Origin: Sphingomonas sp. Leaf412
Lineage (GTDB): Bacteria > Pseudomonadota > Alphaproteobacteria > Sphingomonadales > Sphingomonadaceae
Length of the DNA: 64,000 nucleotides
Assembly (NCBI RefSeq): GCF_001425405.1
Contig: NZ_LMQP01000001.1
Span: forward strand, 103,801-167,800
Reading direction: 5' to 3'
Shown here one piece after another: positions 5,999 through 23,993 of this stretch (the first letter of the stretch is position 1; the number at the start of each line of letters is the position of its first letter). A program made the translations under genes and the position numbers. Under the pieces are notes generated by a model. The model was not told the origin of the DNA and ran no database searches. It saw nothing but the letters and a program-made list of their open reading frames with translations.

Positions 5999-7777
5999 AT
6001 GAGCGTTCTGGGGTTTGCCGACGGCACGACCCGAATCGGGGCGGCGCTGGCGCGCTATCGCACCGCGATCGTCACCGTCGCGGTGCTCAGCGCGATCCTG
6101 AACGTGCTGGTCCTGGCGGGCTCCATCTACATGATGCTCGTGTACGATTCGGTGCTGCCCAGCCACAGCCTGCCGACGCTGTTCAGCCTGCTGGCGATGG
6201 TCGCGGTCGTATACGTGTTCCAGGGCGTGTTCGACGCGATGCGCACGCGCATCCTGACCGACGTCGGCAGCGCGCTGGACCAGGAACTGGCGCCGGAGGT
6301 GCAGCGGATGATGAGCGCCGCCGCATTGAAGGGCCATCGCGCGGGCGGCGACGGCATGACGCCGATGCGCGACCTGGACCAGATCCGATCCTTCATGTCC
6401 TCCGGCGGTCCCGCCGCGCTGCTCGACCTGCCGTGGATCCTGTTCTTCCTCGCCATCCTGACGATGCTCCACATCTGGCTCGGCGTGACCGCGCTGGCGG
6501 GCGCGATCGTCATGATCGGCTTCACCTTCCTGACCGAACGCGCGACGAAGAAGCCCTCGCGCCTCGTCGGACAGATCGTCGCCTGGCGGTCGGGCATGGC
6601 GGAAAGCAACCTGCGCCATGCCGAGGTGCTGACCGCATTAGGGATGCAGCGGCGGATGCGCGACCGCTGGGTAGCGGTGAACCAGCATCACCTCGCCGCG
6701 CAGGACCGCCTGTCGCGCGCGGTGGGCAGCATCGGCGGCGCCAGCCGCATCTTCCGCCTGTTCCTGCAATCGCTGATCCTGACCGTCGGCGCCTTGCTGG
6801 TCATCGACGGGAAGGCGTCGGGCGGCGTCATCTTCGCCTCCTCCATCCTGTCCGGCCGCGCGCTCGCGCCGATCGACACCGCCATCGCGAACTGGAAGGG
6901 CTTCACCGCCGCCCGGACCGGCTGGCATCGCCTCAATTCCATGTTCACCCATCTGCCCGCGCCCGCGGACGGCAACGTCGTCCTGCCCGCGCCGACGCGC
7001 GAGCTTTCGGTCGATCAACTCGCCATCGCGCCCCCGGGGGTGGAGCGGGTGACCGCGCAGGGCCTGACGTTCCGGCTGGCGGCGGGCGAGGCGATGGGCG
7101 TGATCGGGCCGAGCGCGGCGGGCAAGACCTCGCTCGCGCGCGCGCTGATCGGCGTGTGGCCGGCGGTGCGCGGCACGATCCGCCTCGACGGTGCGACCCC
7201 CGATCAATGGGATGCGGACGCGTTCGGCGCCTTCCTGGGCTACCTGCCGCAGACGGTCGAGCTGCTCGAGGGCACCGTGGCGCAGAACATCGCCCGCTTC
7301 GACGATGGCGCGACCTCGGACGAGGTCATCGCCGCCGCCACCGCCGCGGGCGTCCACGACATGATCGTGAAGCTGCCGGGCGGCTACGACACGCCGGTCG
7401 GTGCGGAGGGCGCGCAGCTGTCGGCCGGGCAGCGCCAGCGCATCGGCCTTGCCCGCGCGCTGTTCCGCGATCCCTTCGTCGTCCTGCTCGACGAACCCAA
7501 TTCCAACCTCGACGCCGCGGGCGAGGATGCGCTGGCCGCCGCCATCGCCGGTGTGCGCGGACGCGGCGGCATCGCGATCGTCATCGCGCACCGCCCCTCC
7601 GCACTGGCGCAGGTCAGCCACGTATTGTTCATGCGCGACGGCCGGATGGAGGCGTTCGGCCCGCGCGACGAGGTCATGAGCCGCATCATGAAGCCCCCAA
7701 CGCCTCTCAATGCCCCCCTCGATGCCCCGACTCGCCGCGGCCCGCAGGCCGTTTCCGGCGTGGAGAATGCCGCGTGA
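5999..7777 (+). CDS. type I secretion ABC transporter/ATPase (PrtD family)
   Basis: A 592-residue fused membrane-ATPase subunit of a type I secretion system, which drives one-step export of a protein across both membranes. N-terminal membrane helices span about residues 20-300. The nucleotide-binding domain has Walker A GPSAAGKTS, signature LSAGQRQR, Walker B VVLLDEP and a downstream H-loop IAHRP. There is no N-terminal peptidase (C39) domain, which fits the PrtD/AprD type that exports C-terminal-signal (RTX-like) substrates. It overlaps the adaptor gene by GTGA. In sphingan gene clusters the homologous genes are called atrD and atrB and lie beside the EPS genes, as here. No RTX substrate is encoded nearby. 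Confidence 0.93.
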   Translation: MSVLGFADGTTRIGAALARYRTAIVTVAVLSAILNVLVLAGSIYMMLVYDSVLPSHSLPTLFSLLAMVAVVYVFQGVFDAMRTRILTDVGSALDQELAPEVQRMMSAAALKGHRAGGDGMTPMRDLDQIRSFMSSGGPAALLDLPWILFFLAILTMLHIWLGVTALAGAIVMIGFTFLTERATKKPSRLVGQIVAWRSGMAESNLRHAEVLTALGMQRRMRDRWVAVNQHHLAAQDRLSRAVGSIGGASRIFRLFLQSLILTVGALLVIDGKASGGVIFASSILSGRALAPIDTAIANWKGFTAARTGWHRLNSMFTHLPAPADGNVVLPAPTRELSVDQLAIAPPGVERVTAQGLTFRLAAGEAMGVIGPSAAGKTSLARALIGVWPAVRGTIRLDGATPDQWDADAFGAFLGYLPQTVELLEGTVAQNIARFDDGATSDEVIAAATAAGVHDMIVKLPGGYDTPVGAEGAQLSAGQRQRIGLARALFRDPFVVLLDEPNSNLDAAGEDALAAAIAGVRGRGGIAIVIAHRPSALAQVSHVLFMRDGRMEAFGPRDEVMSRIMKPPTPLNAPLDAPTRRGPQAVSGVENAA

Positions 7778-9120
7778 CCGCCACCACCCTTCCCGCCGCC
7801 GCGACCCTGGGCGATCGCCAAATCATGGCCTTCGATCCCAATGCGCAGATGCGCGGCCGCCTCCGCCTGTCGCTGTCGCTGATCGCGGTCCTGGTCCTGG
7901 GCATCGGGCTGCTGATGGTGGTCGTGCCGATCGGCGGCGCGGTGATCGCGGGCGGGCAGGTCGGCGCCGAATCGCGCGTGAAGCGGATCGCGCATCCCGC
8001 CGGCGGGATCGTCACCGAATTGTACGTGGCCAACGGCGATCATGTGAAGAAGGGCGACGTGCTGATGCGCCTCGACGACAGCGTCACGGGCGTGCAGTCC
8101 GAACTGTCGTCGCTGTCGGTCGATCAATTGCTGGCGCAGCGCGCCCGGCTGGAGGCGGAACGCCTCGGCACGCCGTCCATCGCCTTTCCCGCGCAGCTGA
8201 CGCAGCGCCGCGACGCGGGCGCGGTGAAGGCGATGGCGGACGAGGAGAAGCTGTTCCGCATCCGCCGCGCGGAGGCCGGCGGCATGCGGGGACAGATCGC
8301 CGCCCGCAACGCGCAATACCGCAAGCAGATCGAGGGGTATGAGGCGCAGATCGTCGCGCTCAACCGCCAGACCGCGTTGATCGAACCCGAACGCCGCGGC
8401 GTGAAGGAATTGTGGGACAAGGGGCTGGTGACGATCGGCCGCCTGAACCAGCTGGAACGCACCGGCGCCGACCTTCAGGGTACGATCGCATCCTTGCGCG
8501 CGCAGATCGCGCAGACGCAGGCGCGGATCACCGAATCGAACGAGCAACTGCTCCAGATGAACGACACCCGCCGCGCCGACGCGGGGGCGCAGCTGGCGAC
8601 GGTGAACGGCACGCTGAACCAGGAACAGGTGCGCAGCGCCACCGCCGCCGACGCGCACGACCGCAACGTCATCCGCGCGCCTTATTCGGGCACGGTGGAC
8701 AAGGTCGCCTTCGCCGCGATCGGGGAAGTCGTGCGCCCGGCCGAAACGATCATGGAAATCGTCCCCGACCGCGACCGCATGATCGTGGAAGGCGTGGTCA
8801 GCCCCGCCGACATCGATCAGGTCCGCGAGGGGCAGGAGGCGCGCATCCGCTTCTCCGCCTTCAGCTCGCCCTCGACGCCCGAGATCCACGGCCGCGTCAC
8901 GGTCGTCGCGCCCGAACGCACGACGGATCAGGCCACGCGCCAGAGCTTCTACGCCGTCCGCATCGCGATCGACCAGCGCGACCTGGCGCGCAATCCCGAG
9001 ATGAAATTGCGCCCGGGGATGCCGGCGGAGGTGTTCATCCAGACCGGCAGCCGATCGATGCTGGGCTACATCACGAAGCCGCTGCGCGACCAGTTCGCGC
9101 GTGCCTTCCGCGACAATTGA
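7774..9120 (+). CDS. type I secretion periplasmic adaptor (HlyD/PrtE family)
   Basis: A 448-residue membrane-fusion protein linking the ABC transporter to the outer-membrane channel. One membrane helix (about residues 30-55) is followed by a biotinyl-lipoyl-like half (GIVTELYVANGDHVKKGDVLMRLDD), a long helical hairpin (about 110-300), and the HlyD C-terminal beta region (NVIRAPYSGTVDKVAF; ...PGMPAEVFI). GTG 7774 overlaps the upstream stop in a GTGA arrangement and is preferred. An internal ATG at 7825 (MAFDPNAQ) is the alternative and would still leave the helix intact. Confidence 0.92.
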   Translation: MTATTLPAAATLGDRQIMAFDPNAQMRGRLRLSLSLIAVLVLGIGLLMVVVPIGGAVIAGGQVGAESRVKRIAHPAGGIVTELYVANGDHVKKGDVLMRLDDSVTGVQSELSSLSVDQLLAQRARLEAERLGTPSIAFPAQLTQRRDAGAVKAMADEEKLFRIRRAEAGGMRGQIAARNAQYRKQIEGYEAQIVALNRQTALIEPERRGVKELWDKGLVTIGRLNQLERTGADLQGTIASLRAQIAQTQARITESNEQLLQMNDTRRADAGAQLATVNGTLNQEQVRSATAADAHDRNVIRAPYSGTVDKVAFAAIGEVVRPAETIMEIVPDRDRMIVEGVVSPADIDQVREGQEARIRFSAFSSPSTPEIHGRVTVVAPERTTDQATRQSFYAVRIAIDQRDLARNPEMKLRPGMPAEVFIQTGSRSMLGYITKPLRDQFARAFRDN

Positions 9121-9131
9121 GGAACCGTCCC

Positions 9132-10778
9132 GTGAAATCCATCACGCCGTTCGCCGCGATCCTGCTCGCGTCCACCGCTTCGGCGCAGGTTGCGCGCCCG
9201 GATGCCAGCACCGCCGCCGCCGCCGCCGCGGTCGCACCGCAGGGAACGGCGGCGCCCGCGCTGACCGTCGCGCGCGGCACGACGGCACGCGCGGATCGCC
9301 CCGTCCTGGCCTATCTCCCCGCGGAGGACGATTTCGGCGTCACCCACGGCGGCCCCGCCCCCGCCGTGACCTCGCTGCCCGAGGCGCTGGCGCTCGCCTA
9401 TCGCGGCAACCCGCGCCTGCTGGCCGCGCGCGCCGACGCGCGCTCCGCCGATTATCGCTACCCCGCCGCCCGGTCGCAGTTCGGCCCGACCCTGAACGTC
9501 AGCGGCGCGTACAATTTCAACCGCAACCGGACCGAGGTGCTGCCGGGCCGGTGGCTCGGCGCGCAGGGCTTCACGTCCACCGCGGGCGCGATACTGAACC
9601 AGCCCGTGCTGACCTTCGGCCGCAACAGCGCCGCCGCGGCGGGCGCGCTGGCCGAATCGCGCTTCGCCCGCGACTCGCTGCGCGTGACGGAGGCGGAGGT
9701 GATGCTGTCCGTCGTCGGCGCCTATGTCCGGCTGCAACGCGACGCCAATGCGGTCACGATCGCGCGCCAGAACCTGGAACTGCTCGACCGCCAGTATCGC
9801 GACAATGCGGAGCGGTTCCGCGTCCGCGACATCACGTCCAGCGACCTGCAACAGATCGAGACCCGCGTCGCCTTCGGCCGCGCGCAGGTCACCAACGCGC
9901 TGGGCCAGCTCGGCAGCGCGCAGGGCGCGTTCCTGCGCGACGTCGGTGCCCGCCCCGGCGCCCTTGCCGCCCCCGCCGCGATCGACGTGAAGGTCGCCTC
10001 GCTCGACCAGGCGCTGTCGGTGGCGGAGGTCAACGCCCCCCTGATCCGCGCCGCGCAGGCGCGCGAGAAGACATCGCGCGCCGCGCTGGAGGCCGCGAAG
10101 GCCGAATCGCGCCCGCGCCTCGACCTGCAAGGCACCGCCGACTACGGCAGCGTGTCGCAATATGACGACCGGCTGCGCACGACGCAGATCGTCGGCCGCG
10201 CCGTCCTGACCCAGCCGCTGATCGATTCCGGCCTGCGCAACGCCCGCCGGAACGAGGCGGCGCAGGCGAACCAGGCCGACTGGCGCCTGATCGACGACGC
10301 GGTCCGCACCACGCACCAGTCGGTGAACGAGGCGTGGAACGTCCTGACCTCCGCGCGCGCCTCGCTCGATCAATATGCCGCCGCGGTCGACGCGGCGCAG
10401 CGCGCCTACGACGGCGCGCAGTTGCAGCAGCGCGCGGGCGACCGCACCACGCTGGACGTGCTCGATCTCGCGCGCGACCTGCTCAACATCCGCCTCAGCT
10501 ACAACGCCGCGGTCGCCGACGAATATGTCGCGCGCGCCGCCTTGCTGGCGGCGATGGGGCAGCTGGAGGCGCCGCTGCTGATCCCGGGCATCGCCGGCTA
10601 CGACGCCGACGCGCATTTCGCGCGTGTGCGCGGCAAGGGCGACATCCCGCTGCTGACCCCCGCGCTCGCCGGGCTGGACGGCGCGCTGAACCGCGACACG
10701 ACGCGCGACCGCCCGGTCCGCGATCCCGCCGCGCTCGACGCGGTCGCCGCCCCCGTGCCGTTGCAGGCACCGCGTTAA
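9132..10778 (+). CDS. TolC family outer-membrane channel of the type I secretion system
   Basis: A 548-residue TolC-type outer-membrane efflux protein completing the secretion operon. A signal peptide ending near ...ASTASAQ starts from GTG 9132, 11 bases after the adaptor's stop. Two OEP repeats are visible, each with long coiled-coil helices (for example SLPEALALAYRGNPRLLAARADA and the matching half from about residue 290). The sequence QQRAGDRTTLDVLDLARDLL is typical of the second repeat. Residues about 20-60 form an Ala/Pro-rich low-complexity stretch after the signal, and the C-terminal 60 residues form an extension after the second repeat that appears unstructured. Confidence 0.9.
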   Translation: MKSITPFAAILLASTASAQVARPDASTAAAAAAVAPQGTAAPALTVARGTTARADRPVLAYLPAEDDFGVTHGGPAPAVTSLPEALALAYRGNPRLLAARADARSADYRYPAARSQFGPTLNVSGAYNFNRNRTEVLPGRWLGAQGFTSTAGAILNQPVLTFGRNSAAAAGALAESRFARDSLRVTEAEVMLSVVGAYVRLQRDANAVTIARQNLELLDRQYRDNAERFRVRDITSSDLQQIETRVAFGRAQVTNALGQLGSAQGAFLRDVGARPGALAAPAAIDVKVASLDQALSVAEVNAPLIRAAQAREKTSRAALEAAKAESRPRLDLQGTADYGSVSQYDDRLRTTQIVGRAVLTQPLIDSGLRNARRNEAAQANQADWRLIDDAVRTTHQSVNEAWNVLTSARASLDQYAAAVDAAQRAYDGAQLQQRAGDRTTLDVLDLARDLLNIRLSYNAAVADEYVARAALLAAMGQLEAPLLIPGIAGYDADAHFARVRGKGDIPLLTPALAGLDGALNRDTTRDRPVRDPAALDAVAAPVPLQAPR

Positions 10779-11368: not shown

Positions 11369-11638
11369 ATGCCGATCGACAATTTCGCGACCTTCGCCAC
11401 CGCCCCGAACGATCCCGCCCGCGATGCGGTGGCCGTGACGCCCAGCGACGTCGTCGCGCTTCCGGTCGTGCCGCGCGCGCTGTACGTCGGCACCGGCGGC
11501 ACCCTGGTGGTCCGCTGCATCGATTCGGTCGCCGACGTCACGCTGAAGAACGTCGCCGCGGGCCAGATCCTCGACCTGCGCGTCGGCCACGTCCGCGCCA
11601 CCGGCACGACCGCCGCCGACATCGTGGCGCTCGCCTGA
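11369..11638 (+). CDS. spike base protein, RCAP_Rcc01079-like (phage/GTA head spike)
   Basis: An 89-residue protein whose pattern (AVTPSDVVALP...RALYVGTGGTLVVR...TLKNVAAGQILDLRVGHVRATGTTAADIVAL) matches what I recall of the short spike-base proteins of phages and of the Rhodobacter gene transfer agent (GhsA, rcc01079). In that system they sit with a fibre/spike protein on the capsid and help bind capsular polysaccharide. The ATG has the purine-rich GGAGAAAGGA upstream. It overlaps the next gene by TGATG, so the two are almost certainly made together. No capsid, portal, terminase or tail genes are in the window. Recognition is from sequence pattern only. Confidence 0.65.
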   Translation: MPIDNFATFATAPNDPARDAVAVTPSDVVALPVVPRALYVGTGGTLVVRCIDSVADVTLKNVAAGQILDLRVGHVRATGTTAADIVALA

Positions 11639-13743
11639 TGCGCGGCGCCGCCTTCGGACTGGCGCTGCGTCCGCGACCGCGCCCGACGGGCATCGCCCCC
11701 GTCGCCCCCGTCACCGCGATCGATGCCGACGGGTGGTCCGCGCAATGGGCCGAAGCGCCCCCGCCCGTCTTCGCCCCCGACACCGCGCCGCAGACGATCG
11801 CGGTCGCGCGCGCGGGCTTCGACGCCGCGGCCCGGCCGACCGTCCACGTCGACGCGCGCGTCTTCACGCGGCGGCGGCGACTGGCCTATCCCGCCCATGC
11901 GGACGATACCCCGGCCACGGTGGCGCTGGACGATTACGTCTACGCCACCGACGCGATTCCGGGCGTCGCCAACAATTCGGTGGAAACCAGTCCGAAACCC
12001 GTCGCGGCCTGGGCGATGCCGCATCGCCGCGTCGTGGCGGACGCGATCGAGCTGGAGGCGGTGGCCTTCCACCGCAATGCCCGTGCCGGCCGGATGGTGG
12101 CGGCGGTCCGCTTCCTCGCGACCGACGGAACGACGACGGTGTCGCAGGTCGTCGCCGCCACCACGCTGTCGACGCGCGCGGGCGACCAGCAGCCGCTGCC
12201 GGTCTTCGCCTGCACGCTCGACGTCGCGGCGCTGGCACCGGGCCTGGTGACCGTCGATGCGGAAGTGTATCCGTGGATCGGCGGCGCCGCCTCGGTCCTG
12301 CGCAGCGCGGATCAGGGCGCGGCGCGCGATTTCTCGCCGCGCTATTTCCTGAAGAACGCCGCCCTCGCGGCCGCGCCGCCGCTGGCCTATGTCGCGACGA
12401 CGGGAAACGACGCGACCGGCGTGGTGTCGACGACCGCCGCGACCGCCGCCGCCGCGCCCTTCGCCAGCGTGAAGGGCGCGATCGACGCCGTCCATGCCGC
12501 TCATGCGGCCACCACCGGCGTCGACGGCGCGATCGTGCGGATCGGTGCGGGGACGTTCGTCCTGGCCGGCGCGACGGCGGCGCGGACGCAGCGGGTCGCG
12601 GCGCTGACGATCGAGCGCGATCCCGCCGTCGCGCGCGGCAGCGCGATCGTGACCTGGGGGGCGGCGGCCTTCGCCCCGCGCCTGTCGGCGGGACTGACCG
12701 CCCCGGTCGCGACCGGATGCCTGCGCTTCCGCGACCTGACCGTCCAGCGGACCGGCAGCGCATTTCTTCAAGGCGAGACGGCGGCGCGGCTGGACATCCA
12801 TTGGGAGGATGTCGCGCTCGATAACAATGCGGTGTCGGGAAGCTGGCTGACGCGGTCGGACAATTGGTTCTTCGGCGCGGTGATCGCGAACATGGCGGGG
12901 ACCACGCTGGGCGCGGGCGCCAACGGGGAACAACGGCTGCTGCGCGGGGTCGCCACCGACCTCGCGGATGCGGCATGGGAAAACTGGGTCACGCTCGCCT
13001 GCGCGCTGACGCGGCCCGGCAACGGCACGGTGCGCGATCCGTCGAAGGGGGCGATCGCGTTCCAGAACCGCTTCCTCAATCCCAATCCGGCGAACAGCCC
13101 GCTGACGGTGACCGCCGCCGCGGCCGGGGACACGATCACGGGCTTCTGGGCGGTGCAGAACCTGATCGAGGTCCTCCGCGCGACGGCGGGGCCGATGATC
13201 CGCATCTCGTCCGACGGCCCGGTGCACGGCCATACCGACCATTGCGGCCTGGCGCACAACACCGTCACCGGTCACGGATCGGCGGGGCGGTACAACGTCT
13301 TCTACGACAACAACACCAACGGAACCCGCCGCAACCACCGTCGCATGTGGCACCACGGCGACCTGGCGTCGCAGTTGAACGTGAAGGGCGACGTGGACAT
13401 CGCGGACGCGGCGGCGACGGGGCACATGGCGTATCAGCACGGCGTCGGCTGCCGCGGCAACTTCACGCAATTCCGCACCAATTCCGCGGGCCTGCATCTG
13501 GAAAGCCAGGCCTATGCCGGCGCGCGCAGCGTGATCGGCGCCAGCGCGACCACGCGCAACGACCCCGGCTTCGTCGATTATCGCGCCGCCACCGCGGCGG
13601 GGAACGGGGCCGGCGGCGGCGATTATCGCCTGCTGCCGGGCGGCGCCGCGCGCGGGCTGCTGCGCGAAGCGGTCCTCGGCCACGACCTGGCCGGGGGCGT
13701 CCGTCCCGCGGGCGGGGACCATGCCGCGGGGGCCTATACGTGA
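11638..13743 (+). CDS. right-handed parallel beta-helix protein, putative spike or polysaccharide-active protein
   Basis: A 701-residue protein translationally coupled to the spike-base gene. There is no signal peptide. Residues about 25-240 look like a structural N-terminal domain. At about 250 a typical beta-helix entry begins (YVATTGNDATG...PFASVKGAIDA...VRIGAGTFVLAG), followed by Asn/Gly-rich rungs. The end (NDPGFVDYRA...GGDYRLLPGGAARG) is typical of such helices in tailspikes, pectate-lyase-like enzymes and epimerases. It could be the fibre part of a gene-transfer-agent-like spike. Alternatively it could be an exported polysaccharide lyase using the neighbouring secretion system, since sphingan loci also encode a lyase-like protein (GelR/SpsR). 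The cleavage residues cannot be assigned. Confidence 0.6.
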   Translation: MRGAAFGLALRPRPRPTGIAPVAPVTAIDADGWSAQWAEAPPPVFAPDTAPQTIAVARAGFDAAARPTVHVDARVFTRRRRLAYPAHADDTPATVALDDYVYATDAIPGVANNSVETSPKPVAAWAMPHRRVVADAIELEAVAFHRNARAGRMVAAVRFLATDGTTTVSQVVAATTLSTRAGDQQPLPVFACTLDVAALAPGLVTVDAEVYPWIGGAASVLRSADQGAARDFSPRYFLKNAALAAAPPLAYVATTGNDATGVVSTTAATAAAAPFASVKGAIDAVHAAHAATTGVDGAIVRIGAGTFVLAGATAARTQRVAALTIERDPAVARGSAIVTWGAAAFAPRLSAGLTAPVATGCLRFRDLTVQRTGSAFLQGETAARLDIHWEDVALDNNAVSGSWLTRSDNWFFGAVIANMAGTTLGAGANGEQRLLRGVATDLADAAWENWVTLACALTRPGNGTVRDPSKGAIAFQNRFLNPNPANSPLTVTAAAAGDTITGFWAVQNLIEVLRATAGPMIRISSDGPVHGHTDHCGLAHNTVTGHGSAGRYNVFYDNNTNGTRRNHRRMWHHGDLASQLNVKGDVDIADAAATGHMAYQHGVGCRGNFTQFRTNSAGLHLESQAYAGARSVIGASATTRNDPGFVDYRAATAAGNGAGGGDYRLLPGGAARGLLREAVLGHDLAGGVRPAGGDHAAGAYT

Positions 13744-14022: not shown

Positions 14023-15357
14023 GTGGCGTGGGACAAGCAGCGCATCCGCGTGCTGCTGTACCTGGGCCTACTGCTCTGCGACATCGCCGCGATCCGCGCC
14101 GGTTTCGCGATCGGCCGCTCGGTCCGCAACTGGGAATGGCTGGCCCCGAACGGGGTGGAGCTTGGCTGGCTGATCCTGCCGATCCACATCCTGGTCGGCC
14201 TGCGCAACGGCGCCTATGCGCACGAAGCGCTGTTCAAGCGGTCCGAATCGCTGCGCCGCGCCTCCTCCGCCTTCCTGATCGCGACCAGTGCGATCGCGCT
14301 GCTGATCTTCTTCCAATACGCCGGGCCTCTGGTGTCGCGGATCGCGTTCGGCGTGGCGATCGTCAGCACCCTGTTCTTCATCATGCTGCTGCGCATGACC
14401 TTCTCGGTCCTGTTCGTGCAGCCGGTGCGCGGCGGGCTGATGGGCGAATTGCAGATCGTCGACGGCGTGGCGCCCGCGCCCGGCGCGCGGCACGTGTTCG
14501 ATGCGCGCGCCGCCGGGGTGTCGCCCGATATCGACGATCCCGACATGCTGTCGCGGCTGGCGCTCCTGATCGAACCCTACGACCGCGTCGTCGTCGCGGC
14601 GACGGAGGAGCGCCGCCACGAATGGGCGCTGCTGATGAAGGCGTACAACGTCACCAGCGAGATCCAGCTGGATCAGGGCAGCCCGCTGGGCGCGATCGGC
14701 ATCTCGCGCTTCCACGGTACCGATACCGTCGTGGTGGCGCGGGGGCCGATGTCGCTCGGCAACCGGCTGAAGAAACGCCTCATGGACCTGGCGATCGCGG
14801 GCGCCGCGGTGCTGGTCGCCGGCCCGCTGCTGCTGATCGTGGCGATCGCGATAAAGTGGGACAGTCCCGGCCCGGTCCTGTTCGCGCAGGTCCGCCTGGG
14901 GCGCGGCAACAAGCGGTTCCGCATCCTGAAGTTCCGCTCGATGCACGTGGCGAAGACGGATCACGACGGCAACCGCTCGGCGTCGAAGGACGACGACCGC
15001 ATCACCCGCGTCGGCCGCATCATCCGCATGACCAGCATCGACGAACTGCCGCAATTGTTCAACGTGCTGAAGGGCGACATGAGCATCGTCGGCCCGCGCC
15101 CGCACGCGCTGGGCAGCCTGGCGGGCGACAAATTGTTCTGGCAGGTGTCGCAGAAATATTGGCTGCGCCACACGCTGAAGCCCGGCATCACCGGGCTGGC
15201 GCAGATCCGCGGCTTCCGCGGCGCGACGCACGAACAATCGGACCTGGAAAACAGGCTCCAGGCCGATCTGGAGTATATCAACGGCTGGCGCCTGTGGCGC
15301 GACGTCGCGATCATCTTCAACACGCTGAAGGTGATCGTCCACCCGAAGGCGTTCTGA
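14023..15357 (+). CDS. undecaprenyl-phosphate sugar transferase (EPS priming enzyme, GelB/SpsB-like)
   Basis: A 444-residue membrane enzyme that transfers the first sugar phosphate to undecaprenyl phosphate, starting repeat-unit assembly. Four N-terminal helices (about residues 8-130) and a short middle domain precede the bacterial sugar transferase domain (about 245-444): KKRLMDLAIA, SPGPVLFAQVRLGRGNKRF, LKFRSMH, IDELPQLFNVLKGDMSIVGPRP and KPGITGLAQIRGFRG. The start is uncertain. GTG 14023 has AAGGA six bases upstream and places the first helix at the N-terminus; GTG 13939 is an alternative. In sphingan producers the orthologue (GelB/SpsB) uses UDP-glucose; the sugar used here is inferred by analogy. 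Confidence 0.88.
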   Translation: MAWDKQRIRVLLYLGLLLCDIAAIRAGFAIGRSVRNWEWLAPNGVELGWLILPIHILVGLRNGAYAHEALFKRSESLRRASSAFLIATSAIALLIFFQYAGPLVSRIAFGVAIVSTLFFIMLLRMTFSVLFVQPVRGGLMGELQIVDGVAPAPGARHVFDARAAGVSPDIDDPDMLSRLALLIEPYDRVVVAATEERRHEWALLMKAYNVTSEIQLDQGSPLGAIGISRFHGTDTVVVARGPMSLGNRLKKRLMDLAIAGAAVLVAGPLLLIVAIAIKWDSPGPVLFAQVRLGRGNKRFRILKFRSMHVAKTDHDGNRSASKDDDRITRVGRIIRMTSIDELPQLFNVLKGDMSIVGPRPHALGSLAGDKLFWQVSQKYWLRHTLKPGITGLAQIRGFRGATHEQSDLENRLQADLEYINGWRLWRDVAIIFNTLKVIVHPKAF

Positions 15358-15482: not shown

Positions 15483-16493
15483 TCACCGCCCCGGCGTCGC
15501 CTCCGCCAGCGTGCGCAGGTAATCGACCAGCGCCGCCGGATCGGTCGTCGCCGACCGCGCCGGCCGTTCCCGCGCCGCGATCAGCGCGGCGGCGAATTGC
15601 GCGTCGGTGTCGGCGCGCTGGATCAGCCCGCGCTCCTCGAACGCGTCGACGATCTCGGACTGGTGGTCGTCGTAATGCTCCCCGCGCGCGAAGGCGCGCG
15701 GCACCGCGATGACCTGGCACCACGCGCGCAACGCGGTGATGAGCGATCCCGTGCCGCCGTGGCACACCACGATGCTCGCCCGCTCCAGCAGCGCCTTCAC
15801 CTCGTCGAACGGCAATCCCTCGACCGATCGCACGCCGGGCATCGCGTGGCCGCCGTCGCCGTGCTGGACCACGATCTCCTCGGGGATCAACCCGTCGTCG
15901 CGCGCCTTCTCGACCAGCCGCACCAGCCGGTCGAACGGCAACGTCGCGCCCACGGTGGCGAACAGCAGCGGCGCCTTGGCGGGGGCGGCGCCCTCCTCGA
16001 TGCGGAACGGATCGAACACCAGCGCGCCCGGCCACGCCGCGCCGCTTTCCGCCGATTGCGCGATGCGCACGTGCGCGAACCGCCCCGCCAGCTTCGCGAA
16101 CGCGGACGGCGCGCGGAAGCGGGCGAACGAATCGACCAGCACCACCTTGGCGCCCCGCATCCGCGCGAAGATCATGACGAACAGCTGCGATCCCGCCCCC
16201 GTGGTGATGAACAGGTCGGGCGGGCGCCGCGCGATGATGCGCCACGACGCCACGATGCTGCGCCATGCACCCGACAGCATCGCGCCGCGATCCCCCAGCC
16301 GCGCCTGTCCCAGCGCGAAGTGCGGCACGAAATGGACCTCCTCCTCCGCCGCGATGGACCGGCCGAGCGCGGTGTCCTCGGTCACGATATAGTGCGGATA
16401 GTCCTGCCAGACCGGTTTCAGGTCCAGGATCTGGCGGACGTGGCCGCCGCCGGAGGCGGCCAGACAGATCAGGGGCTTGCGCGCCGACGGCAT
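15483..16493 (-). CDS. EPS glycosyltransferase (GelK/SpsK-like, Alg14-Alg13 type)
   Basis: A 336-residue glycosyltransferase of the GT-B/GT28-like type. The N-terminal half resembles Alg14 (LICLAASGGGHVRQILDL...; FITTGAGSQLFVMIFARMRGAK). The C-terminal half resembles Alg13/MurG (LFATVGATLPFDRLVRLVEKA; VVCHGGTGSLITALRAWCQVIAVPR). In sphingan loci the protein with this layout is the glucuronosyltransferase GelK/SpsK, which adds glucuronic acid to the lipid-linked glucose. That donor is an inference here. The start MPSARKPLICL is chosen because the Alg14-like strand follows immediately. It is divergent from the PPIase gene. Confidence 0.8.
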   Translation of the reverse strand: MPSARKPLICLAASGGGHVRQILDLKPVWQDYPHYIVTEDTALGRSIAAEEEVHFVPHFALGQARLGDRGAMLSGAWRSIVASWRIIARRPPDLFITTGAGSQLFVMIFARMRGAKVVLVDSFARFRAPSAFAKLAGRFAHVRIAQSAESGAAWPGALVFDPFRIEEGAAPAKAPLLFATVGATLPFDRLVRLVEKARDDGLIPEEIVVQHGDGGHAMPGVRSVEGLPFDEVKALLERASIVVCHGGTGSLITALRAWCQVIAVPRAFARGEHYDDHQSEIVDAFEERGLIQRADTDAQFAAALIAARERPARSATTDPAALVDYLRTLAEATPGR

Positions 16494-16636: not shown

Positions 16637-17500
16637 ATGAACCGTTCCGCCACGCTATTGCTCGCCTGTGTCGCCCTCGCCGCCTGCGGCAAGGGTGGCG
16701 ACGCCGCCCCGGAGGGCCAGGTCGCCGCGACCGTGGACGGAAAGGAGATCACCGCGTCGGAGGTCCGCATGGAACTGGGCCAGGCGGGCGCGGACCCGCA
16801 GCTCGCCGCGCAGCAGCAGCCCGCCGCCCTGCGCGCCGTCGTCAACCGCAAGCTGCTGGCCGACGCCGCGGTCGACAAGGGCCTCGACAAGACGCCGGAG
16901 GGGGCGATGATGTTGCAGAAGGCGCGCGAACTGGCGCTGATCCAGATGCTGCAAGGCAGCATCGCGCGCGGCGTGCCGAAGGTCGGGCCCGGGCAGGCCA
17001 CCGACTATGTCCGCGACAATCCGCAACTGTTCGCACAGCGCCGCGTGATCCTGCTCGACCAGATCCAGGCGCCGCAGGTGCCGCCCGCGATCCTGAAGCA
17101 GATGGCGCCGATCGAGACGATGGAGGGGATCGTCGCGCTGCTGGAGGCGAACAAGATCCCGTTCCGCCGCGGCAACGGCGCGATCGACCCGTTGCAGATC
17201 GATCCCAAGGCGCTGAAGTCGATCACCGACCTTGGCGAGGGCAAGGTGTTCGTGACGCCGGGGCCGCAGGGGATCCAGATCGGGCGCATCACCGGCTACA
17301 AGGACGCGCCGCTGACGGGCGAGGAGGCGCAGCGCGCCGCGCTGGCCGTGCTGGGCCAGCAGCAGACCGTGGGTCAGGTGCGGTCGCAGTTCGACACGAT
17401 CATCAAGGACGGGCAGAAGGACGTGAAGATCAACGCCGCCTACGAACCCAAGGGCGGCAAGCCGACGAAGACGCCCGCCCCCGCCGACGCCGCCAAATAG
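16637..17500 (+). CDS. EpsD-type peptidyl-prolyl cis-trans isomerase lipoprotein
   Basis: A 287-residue periplasmic lipoprotein. The signal MNRSATLLLACVALAAC ends in a lipobox (LAAC). The SurA/PpiC-like chaperone region follows (VAATVDGKEITASEVRMEL; ALRAVVNRKLLADAAVDKGLDKTPEG), which is characteristic of EpsD-family foldases found in exosortase-linked EPS clusters. The parvulin-type catalytic part (about 120-240) is divergent. The C-terminal tail is Lys/Pro-rich. It starts a run of same-strand genes that continues to 24694 and probably helps fold or assemble the export channel. Confidence 0.82.
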   Translation: MNRSATLLLACVALAACGKGGDAAPEGQVAATVDGKEITASEVRMELGQAGADPQLAAQQQPAALRAVVNRKLLADAAVDKGLDKTPEGAMMLQKARELALIQMLQGSIARGVPKVGPGQATDYVRDNPQLFAQRRVILLDQIQAPQVPPAILKQMAPIETMEGIVALLEANKIPFRRGNGAIDPLQIDPKALKSITDLGEGKVFVTPGPQGIQIGRITGYKDAPLTGEEAQRAALAVLGQQQTVGQVRSQFDTIIKDGQKDVKINAAYEPKGGKPTKTPAPADAAK

Positions 17501-17529
17501 GCCGGTCGATCCGCGAAGCATCCGACGCC

Positions 17530-18861
17530 ATGACCGTCACCGAACAGGTATCCGCCCCCCGGCGCGACGCCGTCCCGCCGCTCGTCCCTCCGGGCGACGA
17601 CGCGGGCCGGCGCGCGCCGCCGGCCTCGCCCACCCTCGCGCGCGTGCTCGCCGGCGAATTGTGCAGCGGCTGCGGCCTGTGCGCGGGGGTGTCGGGCGGG
17701 GGCATCGAACTGGAAACGGTCGCGCCGGGCTACACCCGTCCGCGGCAGATCGCGCCGATCGACGCCGCGGCGGAGGCGACGATCGCGGCCGCCTGCCCGG
17801 GGGCGAAGGTGGCGCCGTGGGTGGGGCCGCAGGCCGCCGGCCGCCCCTGGGGCGATGCGCCGCACGTCGATCCCTATTGGGGTCCGTATCACAGCTGCGA
17901 GACCGGCCACGCCACCGATCCCGAGGTCCGCTTCGTCGGATCGTCGGGCGGGGTGGCCAGCGCGCTGCTGATCGCCGCGATCGAATCGGGCACGGTCGAC
18001 GCCGCGCTGCACCTGATCGCCGATCCCGACCGGCCGACGCGCAACGTCCTGCACTGGTCGACCACGCGCGCGCAGGTGCTGGCGGGTGCCGGATCGCGCT
18101 ATGCCGCCTCGTCCCCACTGGCGCAGATCGACGCCGCCTTGGCGAGCGGGCGCCGCTTCGCCTTCGTGGGCAAGCCGTGCGACGTATCCGCCTTGCGCCA
18201 GCTGGCGACGCGCGATCCGCGCGTGGACGCGCTGATCCCGCTGAAGATCGCCTTCTTCTGCGGCGGCATCCCCAGCCATGCGGGATCCGACCGGATCGTG
18301 CGCGCGATGGGGCTCGATCCCGCGGGCGTCGCGCGCTTCCGCTATCGCGGCCACGGCTGGCCCGGCACCGCGCGCGCCGACATGGCGGACGGCACGCACG
18401 GCGAGATGAGCTACGCCGACAGCTGGGGCGGCCACCTGTCGAAGGAAGTGCAGTTCCGCTGCAAGATCTGCCCCGATGCGATCGGCGGCGTCGCCGACGT
18501 CGCGGTGGCGGACGCGTGGTACGGCGACGACGCGGGCTATCCCAGTTTCGATGAGCAGGAGGGGCGCAGCCTGGTGATGGCGCGCACGCCCGCGGGCGTG
18601 GCGGCGGTGGCCGCGGCGCGCGACGGCGGCCGCATCGTCACCGCTCCCCTGCCGATAGGCGACATCATCCGGATGCAGCCGTCGCAGGCGAACCGGAAGC
18701 GGTTGATCGCCCCCCGCCTGGCCGCCTGCGCCGCATTGTTCCGCCCGCGGCCGGATGTGTCGGGGCTGAAGGTCCAGGACGCGTTCCGGCTGGGCCGCAT
18801 GGGATATGCGTTCAAGCAATTCGTGGGCACCGCCCGGCGTATCATCATGGGGCGGCGATGA
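17530..18861 (+). CDS. coenzyme F420 hydrogenase/dehydrogenase beta-subunit-like Fe-S flavoprotein
   Basis: A 443-residue protein of the FrhB/FdhB family. A Cys-rich motif at about residues 40-50 (CSGCGLC) and a later RCKICPD (about 315) can ligate iron-sulfur clusters. The central FVGSSGGVASALL and FAFVGKPCDVSALRQL are typical of the family. FrhB-family proteins in EPS loci are common but poorly understood. No F420 biosynthesis or partner subunits are seen, so the F420 name should not be taken literally. It overlaps the barrel-protein reading frame by ATGA, although the likely start of that gene is further down. A role in modifying a sugar or lipid intermediate is speculation. Confidence 0.75.
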   Translation: MTVTEQVSAPRRDAVPPLVPPGDDAGRRAPPASPTLARVLAGELCSGCGLCAGVSGGGIELETVAPGYTRPRQIAPIDAAAEATIAAACPGAKVAPWVGPQAAGRPWGDAPHVDPYWGPYHSCETGHATDPEVRFVGSSGGVASALLIAAIESGTVDAALHLIADPDRPTRNVLHWSTTRAQVLAGAGSRYAASSPLAQIDAALASGRRFAFVGKPCDVSALRQLATRDPRVDALIPLKIAFFCGGIPSHAGSDRIVRAMGLDPAGVARFRYRGHGWPGTARADMADGTHGEMSYADSWGGHLSKEVQFRCKICPDAIGGVADVAVADAWYGDDAGYPSFDEQEGRSLVMARTPAGVAAVAAARDGGRIVTAPLPIGDIIRMQPSQANRKRLIAPRLAACAALFRPRPDVSGLKVQDAFRLGRMGYAFKQFVGTARRIIMGRR

Positions 18862-18938
18862 ATTTCCGGCATTCCGCGGCGCTTCCTTCGGACCGGGGGA
18901 TGGGATATGAGCGGGCTTTGGGGTTCGGGCGGAAACAT

Positions 18939-20162
18939 ATGATGGGTATCAGGACGTCCGCATGGACGGCGTCGCTGGCGACGCTGGCGGTGGCCGCGAC
19001 GCCGGGCACCGCGTCGGCGCAGCCGCGGCGCGAGGCGATCACGCAGCTGGAGGCGTCGCTGGCCGTGCGCCACGACAGCAACGTCGCGCGATCGGATGCG
19101 CAACGCGCGCTCGAACGCAACCTGACGCGCGCGGATCAGCGCGCGACCCCGTCGCTGGACCTGATCGTGTCGCGCCCGCTGGGCCGCAACACCTTCACGA
19201 TCAACGCCTCCGCCGGCTACGATTTCTACCGCCGCAACAAGCGGCTGAACCGCGAGCGGCTGTCGTTCGGCGGGGTGTCCAACCTGATGGCCGGTCCCGT
19301 GACGCTGGACCTGTCGGCGAACTTCGCCCGGCGGCAAAGCGACCCGGGCGACATCGTGCCGCTGCTGATCCCGGGCGCGGACAGCATCCGCAACACCGAG
19401 ACGACGCAGGACTATAATGCGTCGGCGAAGTTCGGCACGTCGCCCTACGGGCTGAAGCCGATGGCCAGCTTCGGCTATTCGCGCGGCACCAATTCCAATG
19501 ATCGCCGGTCGATCGCGAACTACGATTCCACCCGCTACGGCGGCGGCGTCGCCTATGATTCGCCCGCATTGGGGTCGTTCACCGCGCAATATCTGCGCAA
19601 CCAGACCGATTACCCCGATCGCCCCGCCATCTTCACGCAGAGCGGGTTCACCACCGACCGCTTCGAACTGACCGGGAAGCGCGAACTGGGGGCGATCATC
19701 ACGGCGTCGGCGGGCGTGTCCTGGATCAGCCTGAAGCCCGACGACGACGGCACCGAATCGTTCGACAGCGTCGGGTACAACGTGTCGATCACCGCGGTTC
19801 CGACGCCGGATCTTCAGGTCACGGGCAATTTCTCGCGCGACGTGTCCCCGTCGCTGGGGACCGACGCGCTGTACCAGGTCGGGAACAATTACTCGATCGG
19901 CGCCACCTATCAGCTGTCGCGCGCGCATTCCCTGTCGGTGCGCGGCGTGCTGGACGACCGCAACTATGCGGGCGCAGGCCGCGTGTTCGGCATCGCGTTA
20001 ACCGAATCCGTTCAGCGTCAGGTCAGCGCCACCTGGGCTATAGACAGCGGTCGCCCGCTCAGCGTCGCCCTCGATGTCGGATATCAGGACCGCGAAGCCA
20101 ACGGCACGTTCTTCGACTATAACAGCTTCTACGCCGGCATCCGAACCAGCGTGAGGATTTGA
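18939..20162 (+). CDS. outer-membrane beta-barrel protein of the EPS locus
   Basis: A 407-residue exported protein. The start at ATG 18939 or 18942 gives a clean signal peptide (MGIRTSAWTASLATLAVAATPGTASAQ); the longer frame from 18858 would bury it. After the signal, alternating amphipathic strands rich in Tyr, Asn, Ser and Arg (YDFYRRNKRLNRERLSFGG; FGYSRGTNSNDRR; AQYLRNQTDYPDRP) indicate a 14-18-stranded barrel that ends in an aromatic/charged terminal strand. Position next to the Wza-type gene corresponds to the GelF/SpsF slot in sphingan loci, where the product is thought to aid polysaccharide secretion. Confidence 0.75.
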   Translation: MMGIRTSAWTASLATLAVAATPGTASAQPRREAITQLEASLAVRHDSNVARSDAQRALERNLTRADQRATPSLDLIVSRPLGRNTFTINASAGYDFYRRNKRLNRERLSFGGVSNLMAGPVTLDLSANFARRQSDPGDIVPLLIPGADSIRNTETTQDYNASAKFGTSPYGLKPMASFGYSRGTNSNDRRSIANYDSTRYGGGVAYDSPALGSFTAQYLRNQTDYPDRPAIFTQSGFTTDRFELTGKRELGAIITASAGVSWISLKPDDDGTESFDSVGYNVSITAVPTPDLQVTGNFSRDVSPSLGTDALYQVGNNYSIGATYQLSRAHSLSVRGVLDDRNYAGAGRVFGIALTESVQRQVSATWAIDSGRPLSVALDVGYQDREANGTFFDYNSFYAGIRTSVRI

Positions 20163-21019
20163 TGGAGCCTATCGCAATCATGGTCCGCGTCCGCATGTTC
20201 ACCCTTCCCGGCCTCGCCGCGACGTTGCTGTCGACCGCCGCCGTGGCGCAGCAGCCGCGCCCGACGGCGCCCGCCACCCCCGCCGCCGCCGCGCCCGCCG
20301 CGGTGCCCCCGGCGCCGCTCGCCGACGGCTATGTGCTGGGCACCGGCGACGTGGTGGAGGTGTCGGTGCTCGGCCGCGCCGAATTCGCCGCGCGCGTGCA
20401 GGTGCAGGCCGACGGCACGATCCAGCTGCCGTACTTGCGCTCGGTCCCGGCCGCGAACATGACCGTGCTCCAGCTGCGCGACGATATCCGCAAGCGGTTG
20501 CAGGCGGGCGGCTTCTACACCGATCCGGTCGTGGCGGTCACCGTCGCGACCTACACCAGCCGCTACGTCACGGTACTGGGGCAGGTCAGCCAGCCGGGCC
20601 TCGTGCCCGTCGACCGCGCCTATCGCGTGTCGGAAATCCTCGCCCGCGTGGGCGGGGCGCAGGCCAGCGCGGCGGACGCGATCCAGCTGCGACGCGCCGA
20701 CGGATCGACCCTGTCCCTGCCGATCGCCACGATCGCCAGCGGCGGCCCGGATCAGGACCCGTACGTCACGCCCGGCGACAAGCTGTTCCTGCCGGAGGCG
20801 CCGATCTTCTACATCTCGGGCGCGATCAACGGCCAGGGCGCGTACAAGGTCGACAGGGAAATGACCGTGCGCAAGGCACTGGCCCGCGCCGGCGGCGTGA
20901 CCGATCGCGGCTCGGACAAGAAGGTGAAGGTCTTCCGTAACGGTCAGGAGGTCAAGATCGGCCTCGACGAACCGATCATGGGCGGCGATTCGATCAAGGT
21001 CGGCGAGCGGTTCTTCTGA
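20162..21019 (+). CDS. outer-membrane polysaccharide export protein (Wza/GelD-like)
   Basis: A 285-residue periplasmic/outer-membrane export protein. ATG 20162 overlaps the previous stop (TGATG) and has GAGGA four bases upstream. The signal peptide (…GLAATLLSTAAVAQ) is followed by an Ala/Pro linker, the Poly_export domain (LGTGDVVEVSVLGR...VQADGTIQLPYL; FYTDPVVAVTVATYTSRYVTVLGQV) and SLBB-type repeats (VDRAYRVSEILARVGG; FYISGAINGQGAYKVDREMTVRKALARAGG). There is no lipobox Cys after the signal, unlike Wza of E. coli. This is the expected partner of the Wzz-type protein encoded next. Confidence 0.9.
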   Translation: MEPIAIMVRVRMFTLPGLAATLLSTAAVAQQPRPTAPATPAAAAPAAVPPAPLADGYVLGTGDVVEVSVLGRAEFAARVQVQADGTIQLPYLRSVPAANMTVLQLRDDIRKRLQAGGFYTDPVVAVTVATYTSRYVTVLGQVSQPGLVPVDRAYRVSEILARVGGAQASAADAIQLRRADGSTLSLPIATIASGGPDQDPYVTPGDKLFLPEAPIFYISGAINGQGAYKVDREMTVRKALARAGGVTDRGSDKKVKVFRNGQEVKIGLDEPIMGGDSIKVGERFF

Positions 21020-21050
21020 TCGTGACGCGCAACACTGACGGGGTGACCCC

Positions 21051-22391
21051 ATGAGCATCGCACAATTCTTCCGCATCCTGTGGGCACGCCGCTGGATCAT
21101 CCTGGCGACGACGCTGAGCTGCTTCGTCGCGGCGGTGCTCGTCGCGCGCAGCTTCCCGCCGCGCTACCAGGCCAGCTCGCGCGTGATGCTGAACATGTTC
21201 AAGCCCGATCCGGTCACCGGCGAGGCGATCTCCTCCGGCTTCAGCCGCGCCTATGTGAAGACGCAGGGCGAGCTGATCCGCGACTATCGCATCTCGGGCC
21301 GGGTCGTGGACGACCTCGGCTGGATGGCCGATCCGGCGTTGCAGGCGGCCTATGCGCGGCGCGACCCGTCCGACACGCGCGACTTCCGCCGCTGGCTGGC
21401 GCAGCGCGTGTCCGACAACACCAGCACCGGCCTGGTCGATGCCAGCAACATCCTGGAAATCCAGTTCGTGTCCAACTCGCCCGAACAATCGGCGCGGATC
21501 GCGGACACCGTCCGGCAGGCGTATGTCGACCAGGCGCTCAGCTTCAAGCGCGACGATGCGGCGAACAATGCGGACTGGTTCCGCAAGCAGGCGTCGCGCA
21601 TCCGCGCCGAACTGACCGCGGCCGAAGCGCGCAAGACCGCGTTCGAACGCTCCAACGGCATCGTGCTGGCGGAAAACGACACCGACACCGATTCGACCCG
21701 TCTCAACGCGCTCGCCTCGTCCTCGCCCGCGCCCGCCGCGGCACAGATCGCCGCCGCGCAGGCGACGGTCTCGCCGCAGCTGGAACAGGCCAATGCCGCG
21801 ATCGCGAACGCGGAAAAGGTGCTGGGCCCCAACAATCCCGAACTGCTCGCGATGAAGCGTCAGCGTCAGGCGATCCTGTCCACGGTCGCGTCCGCGCAGC
21901 GGTCGGCGCCCGCCGTCGCCGCCGCGGGGCCGTCGATCACCAACCTGTATTCGGCGCAGCAGGCGAAGGTGCTGGCGCAGCGCGGCAAGGTGGCGGAGGC
22001 GCAGCAGCTGAGCGCCGACGTGCGCGTGCTGCGCGATCAATATGCCAAGACGTCGGCACGCGCCGCCGAATTGCAGCAGCAGGGCCAGTCGGACGAAACC
22101 GGCCTCGAACTGCTGGGCAGCGCGGTCGTCCCGACCTCGGCCGAATTCCCGAAATGGCCGCTCGTGATCTTCGGATCGCTGGGCCTGGGCTTCGCGCTGG
22201 GCCTGCTCGCGTCGCTGGTCGTCGAACTGCTCGGCCGTCGCGTGCGCAGCAGCGAGGATCTGGGCTTCCGCGACGTCCCGCTGCTGGGCGTGATGGGCAA
22301 GGCGAAGAGCGGGGCACGGGGCGGACGCGGCGGCAATTTCCTGGCGCGCCTGCTGCCGTTCCGCCGCACCGCGACCGAGGGGGGATATTAA
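21051..22391 (+). CDS. chain-length determinant / polysaccharide co-polymerase (Wzz/GelC-like)
   Basis: A 446-residue inner-membrane protein with two helices (about residues 15-35 and 365-385) flanking a large periplasmic coiled-coil domain, the standard PCP-2 layout. FKPDPVTGEAISSGFSRAYVKTQGELIRDYRI matches the Wzz region. The region after the first helical part is Ala/Gln-rich. There is no kinase domain fused to its C-terminus; that part is encoded separately by the next gene, as in the GelC/GelE and SpsC/SpsE pairs. Confidence 0.88.
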   Translation: MSIAQFFRILWARRWIILATTLSCFVAAVLVARSFPPRYQASSRVMLNMFKPDPVTGEAISSGFSRAYVKTQGELIRDYRISGRVVDDLGWMADPALQAAYARRDPSDTRDFRRWLAQRVSDNTSTGLVDASNILEIQFVSNSPEQSARIADTVRQAYVDQALSFKRDDAANNADWFRKQASRIRAELTAAEARKTAFERSNGIVLAENDTDTDSTRLNALASSSPAPAAAQIAAAQATVSPQLEQANAAIANAEKVLGPNNPELLAMKRQRQAILSTVASAQRSAPAVAAAGPSITNLYSAQQAKVLAQRGKVAEAQQLSADVRVLRDQYAKTSARAAELQQQGQSDETGLELLGSAVVPTSAEFPKWPLVIFGSLGLGFALGLLASLVVELLGRRVRSSEDLGFRDVPLLGVMGKAKSGARGGRGGNFLARLLPFRRTATEGGY

Positions 22392-22395
22392 GGCC

Positions 22396-23100: not shown

Positions 23101-23993
23101 CGCGCTTCCCGCGCGCGGCTGGCGGACCGCCGATCCGGGCAGCGCGCGCGGGGTCCTCGTCCGCCACTGGCCGTTGATCGCGGGCCTGCTGCTCCTGGCG
23201 ATCCCGACGCTCGTCAACATCGGGAAGCAGACCTGGTCGACCGAGATGGGCGCGCACGGCCCGATCGTGCTCGCCACCGGCCTGTGGCTGTTCAGCTACA
23301 ACAAGCTGCGCTTCGACGGCGCGGCCGGGGCCGGGCGCCTGTTGTGGGTCCCCCCCGCTCCTCTTCGCCTTCGCGCTGTACACGTTCGGCCGCGCCTACG
23401 ACTTCATCAGCCTGGAGGCCGCGGGCCTGTACATCGTCTTCGCGGTGGTGCTGTACCTCCTGGCCGGATGGTCGGAATGGAAGCGCAACCTGTTCCCCCT
23501 GTTCTACATCGGCTTCGTCATCCCCCCGCCGGGCTGGGTGATCGACCGCATCACCGCCCCGCTCCAGACCTTCGTGTCCTTCGCCGCGGTCCATATCCTG
23601 ACGCCGCTGGGCTATCCGATCTCGCGCGAGGGCGTGTCGCTGACCGTGGCGCAATATCAATTGCTGGTGGAGGATGCCTGCGCGGGCATGAACTCGCTCA
23701 TGGGCCTGACCGCGATCAGCCTGTTCTACATCTACCTCATGCATCGCGCGTCGTGGCGCTATGCCGGGATGATGGTCGCGCTGATCGTGCCGATCGCGGT
23801 GTTCGTGAACATCCTGCGCGTCCTGGCGCTGATCCTCATCACCTATTATTTCGGCAACGCCGCGGCGCAGGGGTTCCTGCACGTCACGACGGGCCTGGTC
23901 CTCTTCACCCTGGCGATCGCGCTGATGTTCCTCGTCGACATGATGTTCCAGGCGATCGTGACCCGCCGTCGCGGCGCGGGGGCGGCGGCATGA
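23090..23993 (+). pseudogene. exosortase (XrtV-like), disrupted by a frameshift in a C7 tract
   Basis: The product would be an about 300-residue polytopic exosortase. ATG 23090 overlaps the ATPase stop by 11 bases. The frame runs to about 23349, then a run of seven C (23350-23356) shifts it. Removing one C restores WVPPLLFAFALYTFGR and the rest through 23993. Catalytic Cys (VEDACAGMNSL), Arg (NILRVLALIL) and His (GFLHVTTGL) are all present in the downstream frame. As written the gene is broken; this may be a sequencing error, phase variation or true loss. Exosortases process PEP-CTERM proteins, and none is encoded in the window. The V-type assignment is tentative. Confidence 0.8.

Follow-up and report, generated by a model that had tools for sequence, protein, structure and literature searches.

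The head spikes of RcGTA, the gene transfer agent (GTA) of Rhodobacter capsulatus, were reportedly described by Westbye in 2016. According to the accessible portions of the sources cited here and below, each of these spikes consists of a single fibre of 325 residues seated on five copies of a base protein (PMC7296036), and they are encoded away from the main GTA cluster, next to genes for polysaccharide (PMC7296036, PMC10218006, PMC6209664). Published work describes this separation from the main cluster and also relatives of both base and fibre in RcapNL and RcapMu (PMC6209664, PMC8601537). A 2026 preprint adds a detachable RcGTA tailspike, TspA, which combines an N-terminal beta-sandwich with a right-handed beta-helix, degrades biofilm and is reported to be absent from megatron-encoding Alphaproteobacteria outside Rhodobacterales (PMC13420450). 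Kogay and Zhaxybayeva consider that co-encoded specific polysaccharide receptors could aim GTAs at kin, and that receptor-only cheaters could exploit such a system (PMC10883770). Here we describe a pair of coupled genes at positions 11369-13743 of a 64,000-nucleotide stretch of the Sphingomonas sp. Leaf412 genome (hereafter the window; contig NZ_LMQP01000001.1, positions 103,801 to 167,800, its first base being C1:103801 in contig coordinates). The pair is very probably the head-spike locus of a Sphingomonadales GTA, equivalent to ghsA/ghsB of R. capsulatus, with the exopolysaccharide (EPS) of the adjoining locus as the likeliest receptor. The linkage of spike and receptor genes was known from R. 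capsulatus, and what is added here is its recurrence across Sphingomonadales. A search of mostly open-access literature found no survey of spike location in sphingomonads, though one may exist.

The spike base and its coupled fibre

The pair is laid out as follows in window coordinates:

11369..11638, plus strand: spike-base open reading frame (ORF) of the GhsA/Rcc01079 family, 89 residues (NF048002, PDB 6tb9, structure model)
11638..13743, plus strand: head-spike fibre, 701 residues, with an anchoring N-terminus, beta-strand domains and a predicted right-handed beta-helix (overlap with the base gene, structure model)
11638..11673, plus strand: presumed docking peptide for the base pentamer, fibre codons 1-12 (binding postulated from RcGTA)

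The 89-residue protein belongs to the spike-base family of RcGTA GhsA (Rcc01079), as a first-pass annotation made from the sequence had proposed. It is recognized by the NCBIfam profile NF048002 ('spike base protein, RCAP_Rcc01079 family') with 105.4 bits against a cut-off of 28, as well as by PHROG 12296, and a PDB search retrieves chain E3 of 6tb9 ('Head spike base Rcc01079') at E 3e-10. Its structure model, built from 30 sequences (predicted local distance difference test score, pLDDT, 89.9), adopts the spike-base jelly-roll fold, with template-modelling (TM) scores of 0.86/0.91 to 6tb9; the next-best fold match is 8cjz, the 'Spike Base Protein' of the Carin1 phage (TM 0.71/0.73). A profile search of the whole Leaf412 genome returned this protein as the single NF048002 match.

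The same annotation had placed the base in translational coupling with a 701-residue beta-helix protein. The coupling is borne out, base 11638 being common to the stop codon (TGA) of the base ORF and the start codon (ATG) of the fibre ORF. We compared this arrangement across 98 loci, namely the window, 21 earlier loci and 80 kept of 104 named-genome relatives, minus 4 duplicates; at least three pairs among them look like one genome taken twice (L050/L100, L051/L108, L042/L143), and 19 are shorter than 19 kb because contigs end. L143, from Alteraurantiacibacter aquimixticola, has a wza-linked pair, and its base shows no difference from that of L042, whose genome contains a GTA capsid. The overlap is 1 base in 71 of these loci and 4 bases in a further 6. 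Thirty-one of the 98 bases lie in GTA clusters, while the detached remainder was first labelled as 53 'EPS' and 14 'other' loci.

The fibre begins with MRGAAFGLAL, which resembles the docking peptide of the RcGTA fibre as given in the accessible part of its description (PMC7296036). The pattern [FYLIMV]G[FYLIMV] is found in the first 16 residues of 66 out of 83 fibres, against 5, 4 and 4 out of 83 in three control windows, and it is about equally frequent in in-cluster fibres (13/17) and in those of detached 'EPS' (42/53) and 'other' (11/13) loci. These 83 are the loci with a fibre frame of at least 60 residues starting -4 to +6 bases from the base stop; the 15 dropped loci comprise 14 in-cluster and one 'other'.

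As to the fibre body, NCBIfam and PHROG gave no family match at the limits used, and Pfam gave a single sub-threshold one (14.1 bits, cut-off 25). The structure model is of medium confidence (mean pLDDT 61; residues 1-21 and 543-701 below 50). In it residues 25-211 are mostly strands and loops, which may form a beta-sandwich. Foldseek with this model returned no match at E 0.001 or better. When the entries on its list were aligned with VIA-align 2, a second-look aligner, residues 221-605 matched PL6 alginate lyases (Z 16.5, root-mean-square deviation 3.2, 244 residues aligned), the phage tailspike depolymerase 8oq0 (Z 14.8) and WceF (Z 11.8). On account of these matches the fibre body is predicted to include a right-handed beta-helix of the lyase/tailspike kind, which agrees, at the confidence of the model, with the earlier proposal. 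Three residues, E511, R551 and K583, are invariant across 10 rows of fibre relatives and might have a catalytic role. The fibre lacks the RTX nonapeptide GGxGxDx[LIVFYM]x, and its N-terminus is not strongly hydrophobic (highest 15-residue hydropathy mean 0.97). Since it overlaps the spike-base gene and begins with the docking pattern, it probably carries a virion anchor, unlike an anchor-free enzyme of the WceF type. A scan for promoters and terminators gave nothing above chance.

Relatives of the fibre are found in several contexts. The Synechococcus phages Yong-M4-211 and Ssp-JY42 encode a homologue of the fibre body (37% identity over 81% of the query), and a protein of the phage T5S1-k141_653015 matches the fibre hidden Markov model over 25-695. 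When the whole protein was used as the query, 12 of the 149 family genomes, Leaf412 included, proved to hold a relative, and we examined four of them. In G038 and G072 (L241 and L242, about 9400-12200 when oriented like the fibre) a fibre-related frame of 918-942 residues directly follows the GTA capsid gene with no base recognised, possibly a second way of decorating the head. In G023 and G011 the relative is joined to a different N-terminus and has no match to a GTA or EPS reference protein nearby; we take these two genes to be prophage tail fibres.

The GTA cluster and the location of spike bases in relatives

A search for the HK97 capsid (gene at C1:97332) led to a GTA head-tail cluster that occupies C1:88606-102922 on the minus strand of this contig and ends 879 bases before the window starts, 12.2 kb from the spike pair. 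Thus, the first-pass statement that no other phage genes are present stands for the window and fails for the contig, being an effect of the window's edge; its suggestion that a main cluster lies elsewhere in the genome is supported. Profile scans of C1:84000-103900 identified terminase, portal, protease, HK97 capsid, head-tail connector, tail tube, GTA-gp10 (PF11836), distal tail (TIGR02217, Rcc01695 family) and a megatron-related protein. The distal-tail protein (TIGR02217, PF09343) is fused to a tail-sheath TIM barrel (PF23844, PF23845; L032:7900-10179), while a profile search of the Leaf412 genome found no PF13547 (GTA_TIM). The megatron-related ORF of 770 residues scores 384 bits, below the NF048004 cut-off of 800; the corresponding frames of complete relatives are also short, about 720-900 residues, against the 1299 positions of the profile. 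The last gene of the cluster we take to be a small-terminase-like ORF, and those that separate the distal-tail gene from the megatron gene are likewise named by reading. An ORF of 164 residues with lower GC content lies between the terminase and portal genes (L032:16522-17016).

One relative of the same genus, G091, has a GTA cluster and no NF048002 match. The 59.7 kb around this cluster hold no match to the EPS or type I secretion proteins of the window, so that it gives no empty site for comparison. Its cluster has about 2.3 kb of extra DNA between the protease and capsid genes (L238:1908-4201), with an ORF that is presumably an insertion sequence (IS) transposase, and looks interrupted.

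The linkage of spike bases to polysaccharide genes recurs across Sphingomonadales. NF048002 matched 30 of the 149 family genomes, that of Leaf412 among them, 26 over the cut-off and 22 with at least 90 bits; the location counts use these 22 and leave out the 8 weaker ones. Five of the 22 have the base within the GTA cluster, immediately behind the capsid gene, three of them with a coupled fibre frame, and in the other 17 it is detached. Twelve of the 17 detached bases are within 11 kb of PF02563 (wza) as against 0.39 expected under uniform placement (P about 1e-16, with a null that ignores insertion hot spots), and a thirteenth, in G009, has PF02563 at 11.03 kb; no such proximity is seen for any of the 5 in-cluster bases or for any of 19 GTA clusters.

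The 98 loci give a similar picture. At least one of 19 recurrent polysaccharide families (including Wzc, Wza, Wzy, Wzx, glycosyltransferases, and rhamnose and UDP-glucose dehydrogenase genes) is found at 55 of the 67 detached loci, 49 of them with two or more, versus none of the 31 in-cluster loci; this count is partly circular, the list having been picked from families recurring at detached loci, whereas the whole-genome PF02563 count is not. Most of the 19 family representatives were scanned against Pfam, and a few labels come from reading. This second list replaced a first location rule that took EpsD-like matches as EPS; 5 of the 53 loci so labelled have no family of the second list.

A class-wide scan of 385 genomes found a base match in 11, four of them in the window's family, which yielded 7 loci from 6 non-family genomes after G448, below the cut-off, was left out. 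Two of these lie near Wzz- and tyrosine-kinase-like genes, together with Wza (L150) or a priming transferase (L151), and one is in a GTA cluster (L152); the remaining four (L147, L148, L149, L153) are near neither polysaccharide genes nor a GTA, and the gene beside the L148 copy we take to be a small terminase. In a tree of 104 bases (a short alignment with many unresolved forks, rooted at the midpoint) 30 in-cluster family rows and 3 'other' rows form one clade of 33 (support 98/81) among the detached ones, and the EPS label changes 12 times as against 34.9 when shuffled.

Two records call for separate mention. Contig 6 of G046 (L062, 23 kb) bears a second, divergent spike base (66 bits) and a GTA-gp10 match of 49 bits; the 142-residue ORF directly after this base is presumably a head-tail connector. 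The base of L088, a record titled Bacillus sp. 2B10, groups on short branches with that of an uncultured Sphingomonas (support 100/91), and the record is probably a mislabelled or mixed assembly.

Flanking genes and the competing readings

The pair is flanked in the window by the following genes:

5999..10778, plus strand: type I secretion-like ABC, membrane-fusion and TolC genes (names from reading the sequence)
14023..15357, plus strand (ORF open from 13759): EPS priming glycosyltransferase (PF02397 at window 14773-15339, C1:118573-119139)
15483..16493, minus strand: GT28/Alg13-14-like glycosyltransferase (BLAST relative of L064:11841-12977, which has PF04101)
16658..24694, plus strand: EPS assembly and export genes (PF02563, Wza, at window 20321-20545)

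The PF02397 match upholds the earlier observation that an EPS priming enzyme lies directly downstream, and a PF02563 wza gene is found further on. The other genes of 16658..24694 we take, from reading the sequence, to be EpsD-like, beta-barrel, Wzz, tyrosine kinase, exosortase-like and EpsI-like; the gene order is kept in four loci, all titled Sphingobium (L065, L067, L071, L075). After the EPS locus, at 24781-28705, come what are presumably trehalose-phosphatase, glucoamylase-like and trehalose-phosphate synthase genes. Matches to the type I proteins occur near 16 of the 67 detached bases, the window included, but the full set of three is confined to the window and L078, and identities outside the window are 27-39%; these genes are probably not part of the spike system.

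The family and fold of the base, the coupled fibre with its docking pattern, the GTA cluster in the same genome, the in-cluster bases of relatives and the polysaccharide genes at most detached copies all argue for the GTA head-spike reading, which had been one of two put forward at first pass. By analogy with RcGTA we infer how the pair might operate. Each capsid pentamer would seat five copies of the 89-residue jelly-roll base, and the base pentamer would receive the N-terminal hydrophobic/glycine peptide of one fibre chain. The fibre body, with its beta-strand domains and beta-helix, would then face away from the capsid, where it would bind and perhaps also shorten the polysaccharides that coat a recipient. 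The particle itself would be built from the GTA structural genes 12 kb upstream. Its likeliest receptor would be the polysaccharide of the EPS locus directly downstream, in which case particle ligand and cell receptor travel as neighbours.

Several findings weigh against this reading. Base homologues occur in 11 phage records, true phages included. The fibre has no match up to E 1 in a PDB sequence search, and for its C-terminal 159 residues the model is of very low confidence. Most GTA-bearing relatives (TIGR02217 is found in 101 and PF11836 in 99 of the 149 genomes) are without a recognised spike base, and the association of TIGR02217 with spike genomes is weak (19/22 versus 82/127 others, Fisher p 0.049). 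A full-length GTA capsid is present in 17 of the 22 spike genomes but in only 12 of the 17 with a detached base: G041, G079 and G102 have none, G076 has a fragment and G046 a 28% match only. Moreover, G041 and G079 have no GTA marker at all, yet possess a wza-linked base and fibre. The bases of three weaker-scoring genomes (G075, G067, G017) have no wza gene within 11 kb; the linkage to PF02397 is looser, with 2 of 17 detached bases within 11 kb and 7 within 20 kb (0/5 in-cluster); and 12 of the 67 detached loci have no listed polysaccharide family, some of them being cut by contig ends. Finally, a coupled fibre frame follows 66 of the 67 detached bases versus 17 of the 31 in-cluster ones, and one of these 17 (L087) probably codes for a connector; by our reading the automated search for fibres mistook connectors for 'type 5 fibres' at four loci (L087, L105, L118, L131), and only L087 entered the count.

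The alternative that survives best accepts the head spike and places its receptor in a different surface glycan, one not produced by the adjacent locus, which we regard as unlikely. Fibre types are many and change 40 times on the base tree. Detached loci and GTA clusters have types 1, 2, 3 (that of the window) and 10 in common; this sharing ties the detached fibres to the particle, and it would also suit a receptor that is independent of the neighbouring genes. Fibre type 0 is associated with rhamnose genes (11/20 versus 4/35, Fisher p 0.001), but supported branches give just 1 independent pair and all branches together 7, and this covariation is indistinguishable from shared descent, and for type 3 the counts are 2/4 versus 13/51 (p 0.30). 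Fibres at 'EPS' loci are longer than in-cluster ones (median 677 residues, n=53, versus 314, n=17; Mann-Whitney p 1e-4), a contrast that persists without L087, L094 and three repeats (p 1e-3, n=51 versus 14), the loci not being independent. Against a different glycan stand the recurrent linkage to polysaccharide genes and the R. capsulatus precedent.

Much less probable is that the pair is a domesticated extracellular device, free of any particle, which binds or cleaves the cell's own EPS in the manner of WceF and stewartan in Pantoea. The position directly before EPS genes, the resemblance of the fibre model to WceF and PL6 lyases, the persistence of base and fibre in G041 and G079, and the greater frequency of the coupled fibre at detached bases would all fit it. 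However, base and fibre have stayed together, with a 1- or 4-base overlap in 77 of the 98 loci, and in RcGTA a relative of that base binds the capsid; detached and in-cluster fibres show the docking pattern at about equal rates; and the fibre has neither a strongly hydrophobic N-terminus nor an RTX repeat, WceF having a Tat signal in the part of its description available to us (PMC7949094). The first-pass version of this idea, with export by the adjacent type I system, is not supported: a type I substrate is rejected on the lack of an RTX repeat and of a strongly hydrophobic N-terminus and on the rarity of type I genes near detached bases. Nor is the fibre a lone EPS lyase never linked to a base, its family being found with the base, in GTA clusters and in phages.

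Just as improbable is a prophage or mobile-element remnant or passenger that landed in the EPS locus, leaving a functionless linkage: base and fibre-body homologues in phages, the fibre relatives of G023 and G011 and the setting of the L148 copy are in its favour, but both frames are open, a GTA cluster is present and the export-gene linkage is seen in 12 of 17 genomes (0.39 expected under a null that ignores insertion hot spots, which may have contributed) and in 0 of 19 GTA clusters.

Beyond Leaf412, we tentatively propose, as an idea that may well not hold, that in Sphingomonadales, and perhaps throughout Alphaproteobacteria, numerous GTA head spikes are retained next to the genes for their receptor polysaccharide as a lock-and-key cassette, in which bodies would be exchanged freely while the base is conserved. 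If the proposal is right, ligand and receptor would be inherited together and DNA sharing would be steered to kin. As spike genes lie mostly in two places, the GTA cluster itself or a polysaccharide locus, kin-targeting becomes directly testable. In Leaf412 the predicted spike body would, moreover, be a possible EPS depolymerase.

Comparison with described systems

The Leaf412 pair shares with RcGTA GhsA/GhsB, as far as the accessible sources describe them, the family and fold of the base, the alternating hydrophobic/glycine N-terminus of the fibre and a detached locus beside polysaccharide genes. It differs in the fibre, which is 701 residues long with a predicted beta-helix as against 325 residues and flexible in RcGTA, in a GTA cluster that is only 12 kb away, in the bacterial order, and in an EPS locus that we read as exosortase-type. 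The likeness of the fibre to Rcc01080 lies in gene position and N-terminal pattern. The proteins of Yong-M4-211, Ssp-JY42 and T5S1, all annotated as hypothetical, are like the body of the Leaf412 fibre but are not among the 11 base-matching records. Their genes presumably lie in or beside phage tail regions.

Pantoea stewartii WceF is likewise a tailspike-like beta-helix encoded in an EPS locus (PMC7949094). Unlike the Leaf412 fibre, it bears a Tat signal and is not described, in the accessible part of that source, as coupled to a capsid-binding base (PMC7949094). The layout of the Leaf412 fibre model appears similar to that of TspA when the two are set side by side by description only. TspA sits on the baseplate, whereas in Leaf412 the similar layout is joined to a head-spike anchor. 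From this part of the class TspA is reportedly missing, and the pair suggests that sphingomonad GTAs may instead bear an EPS-active beta-helix on the head.

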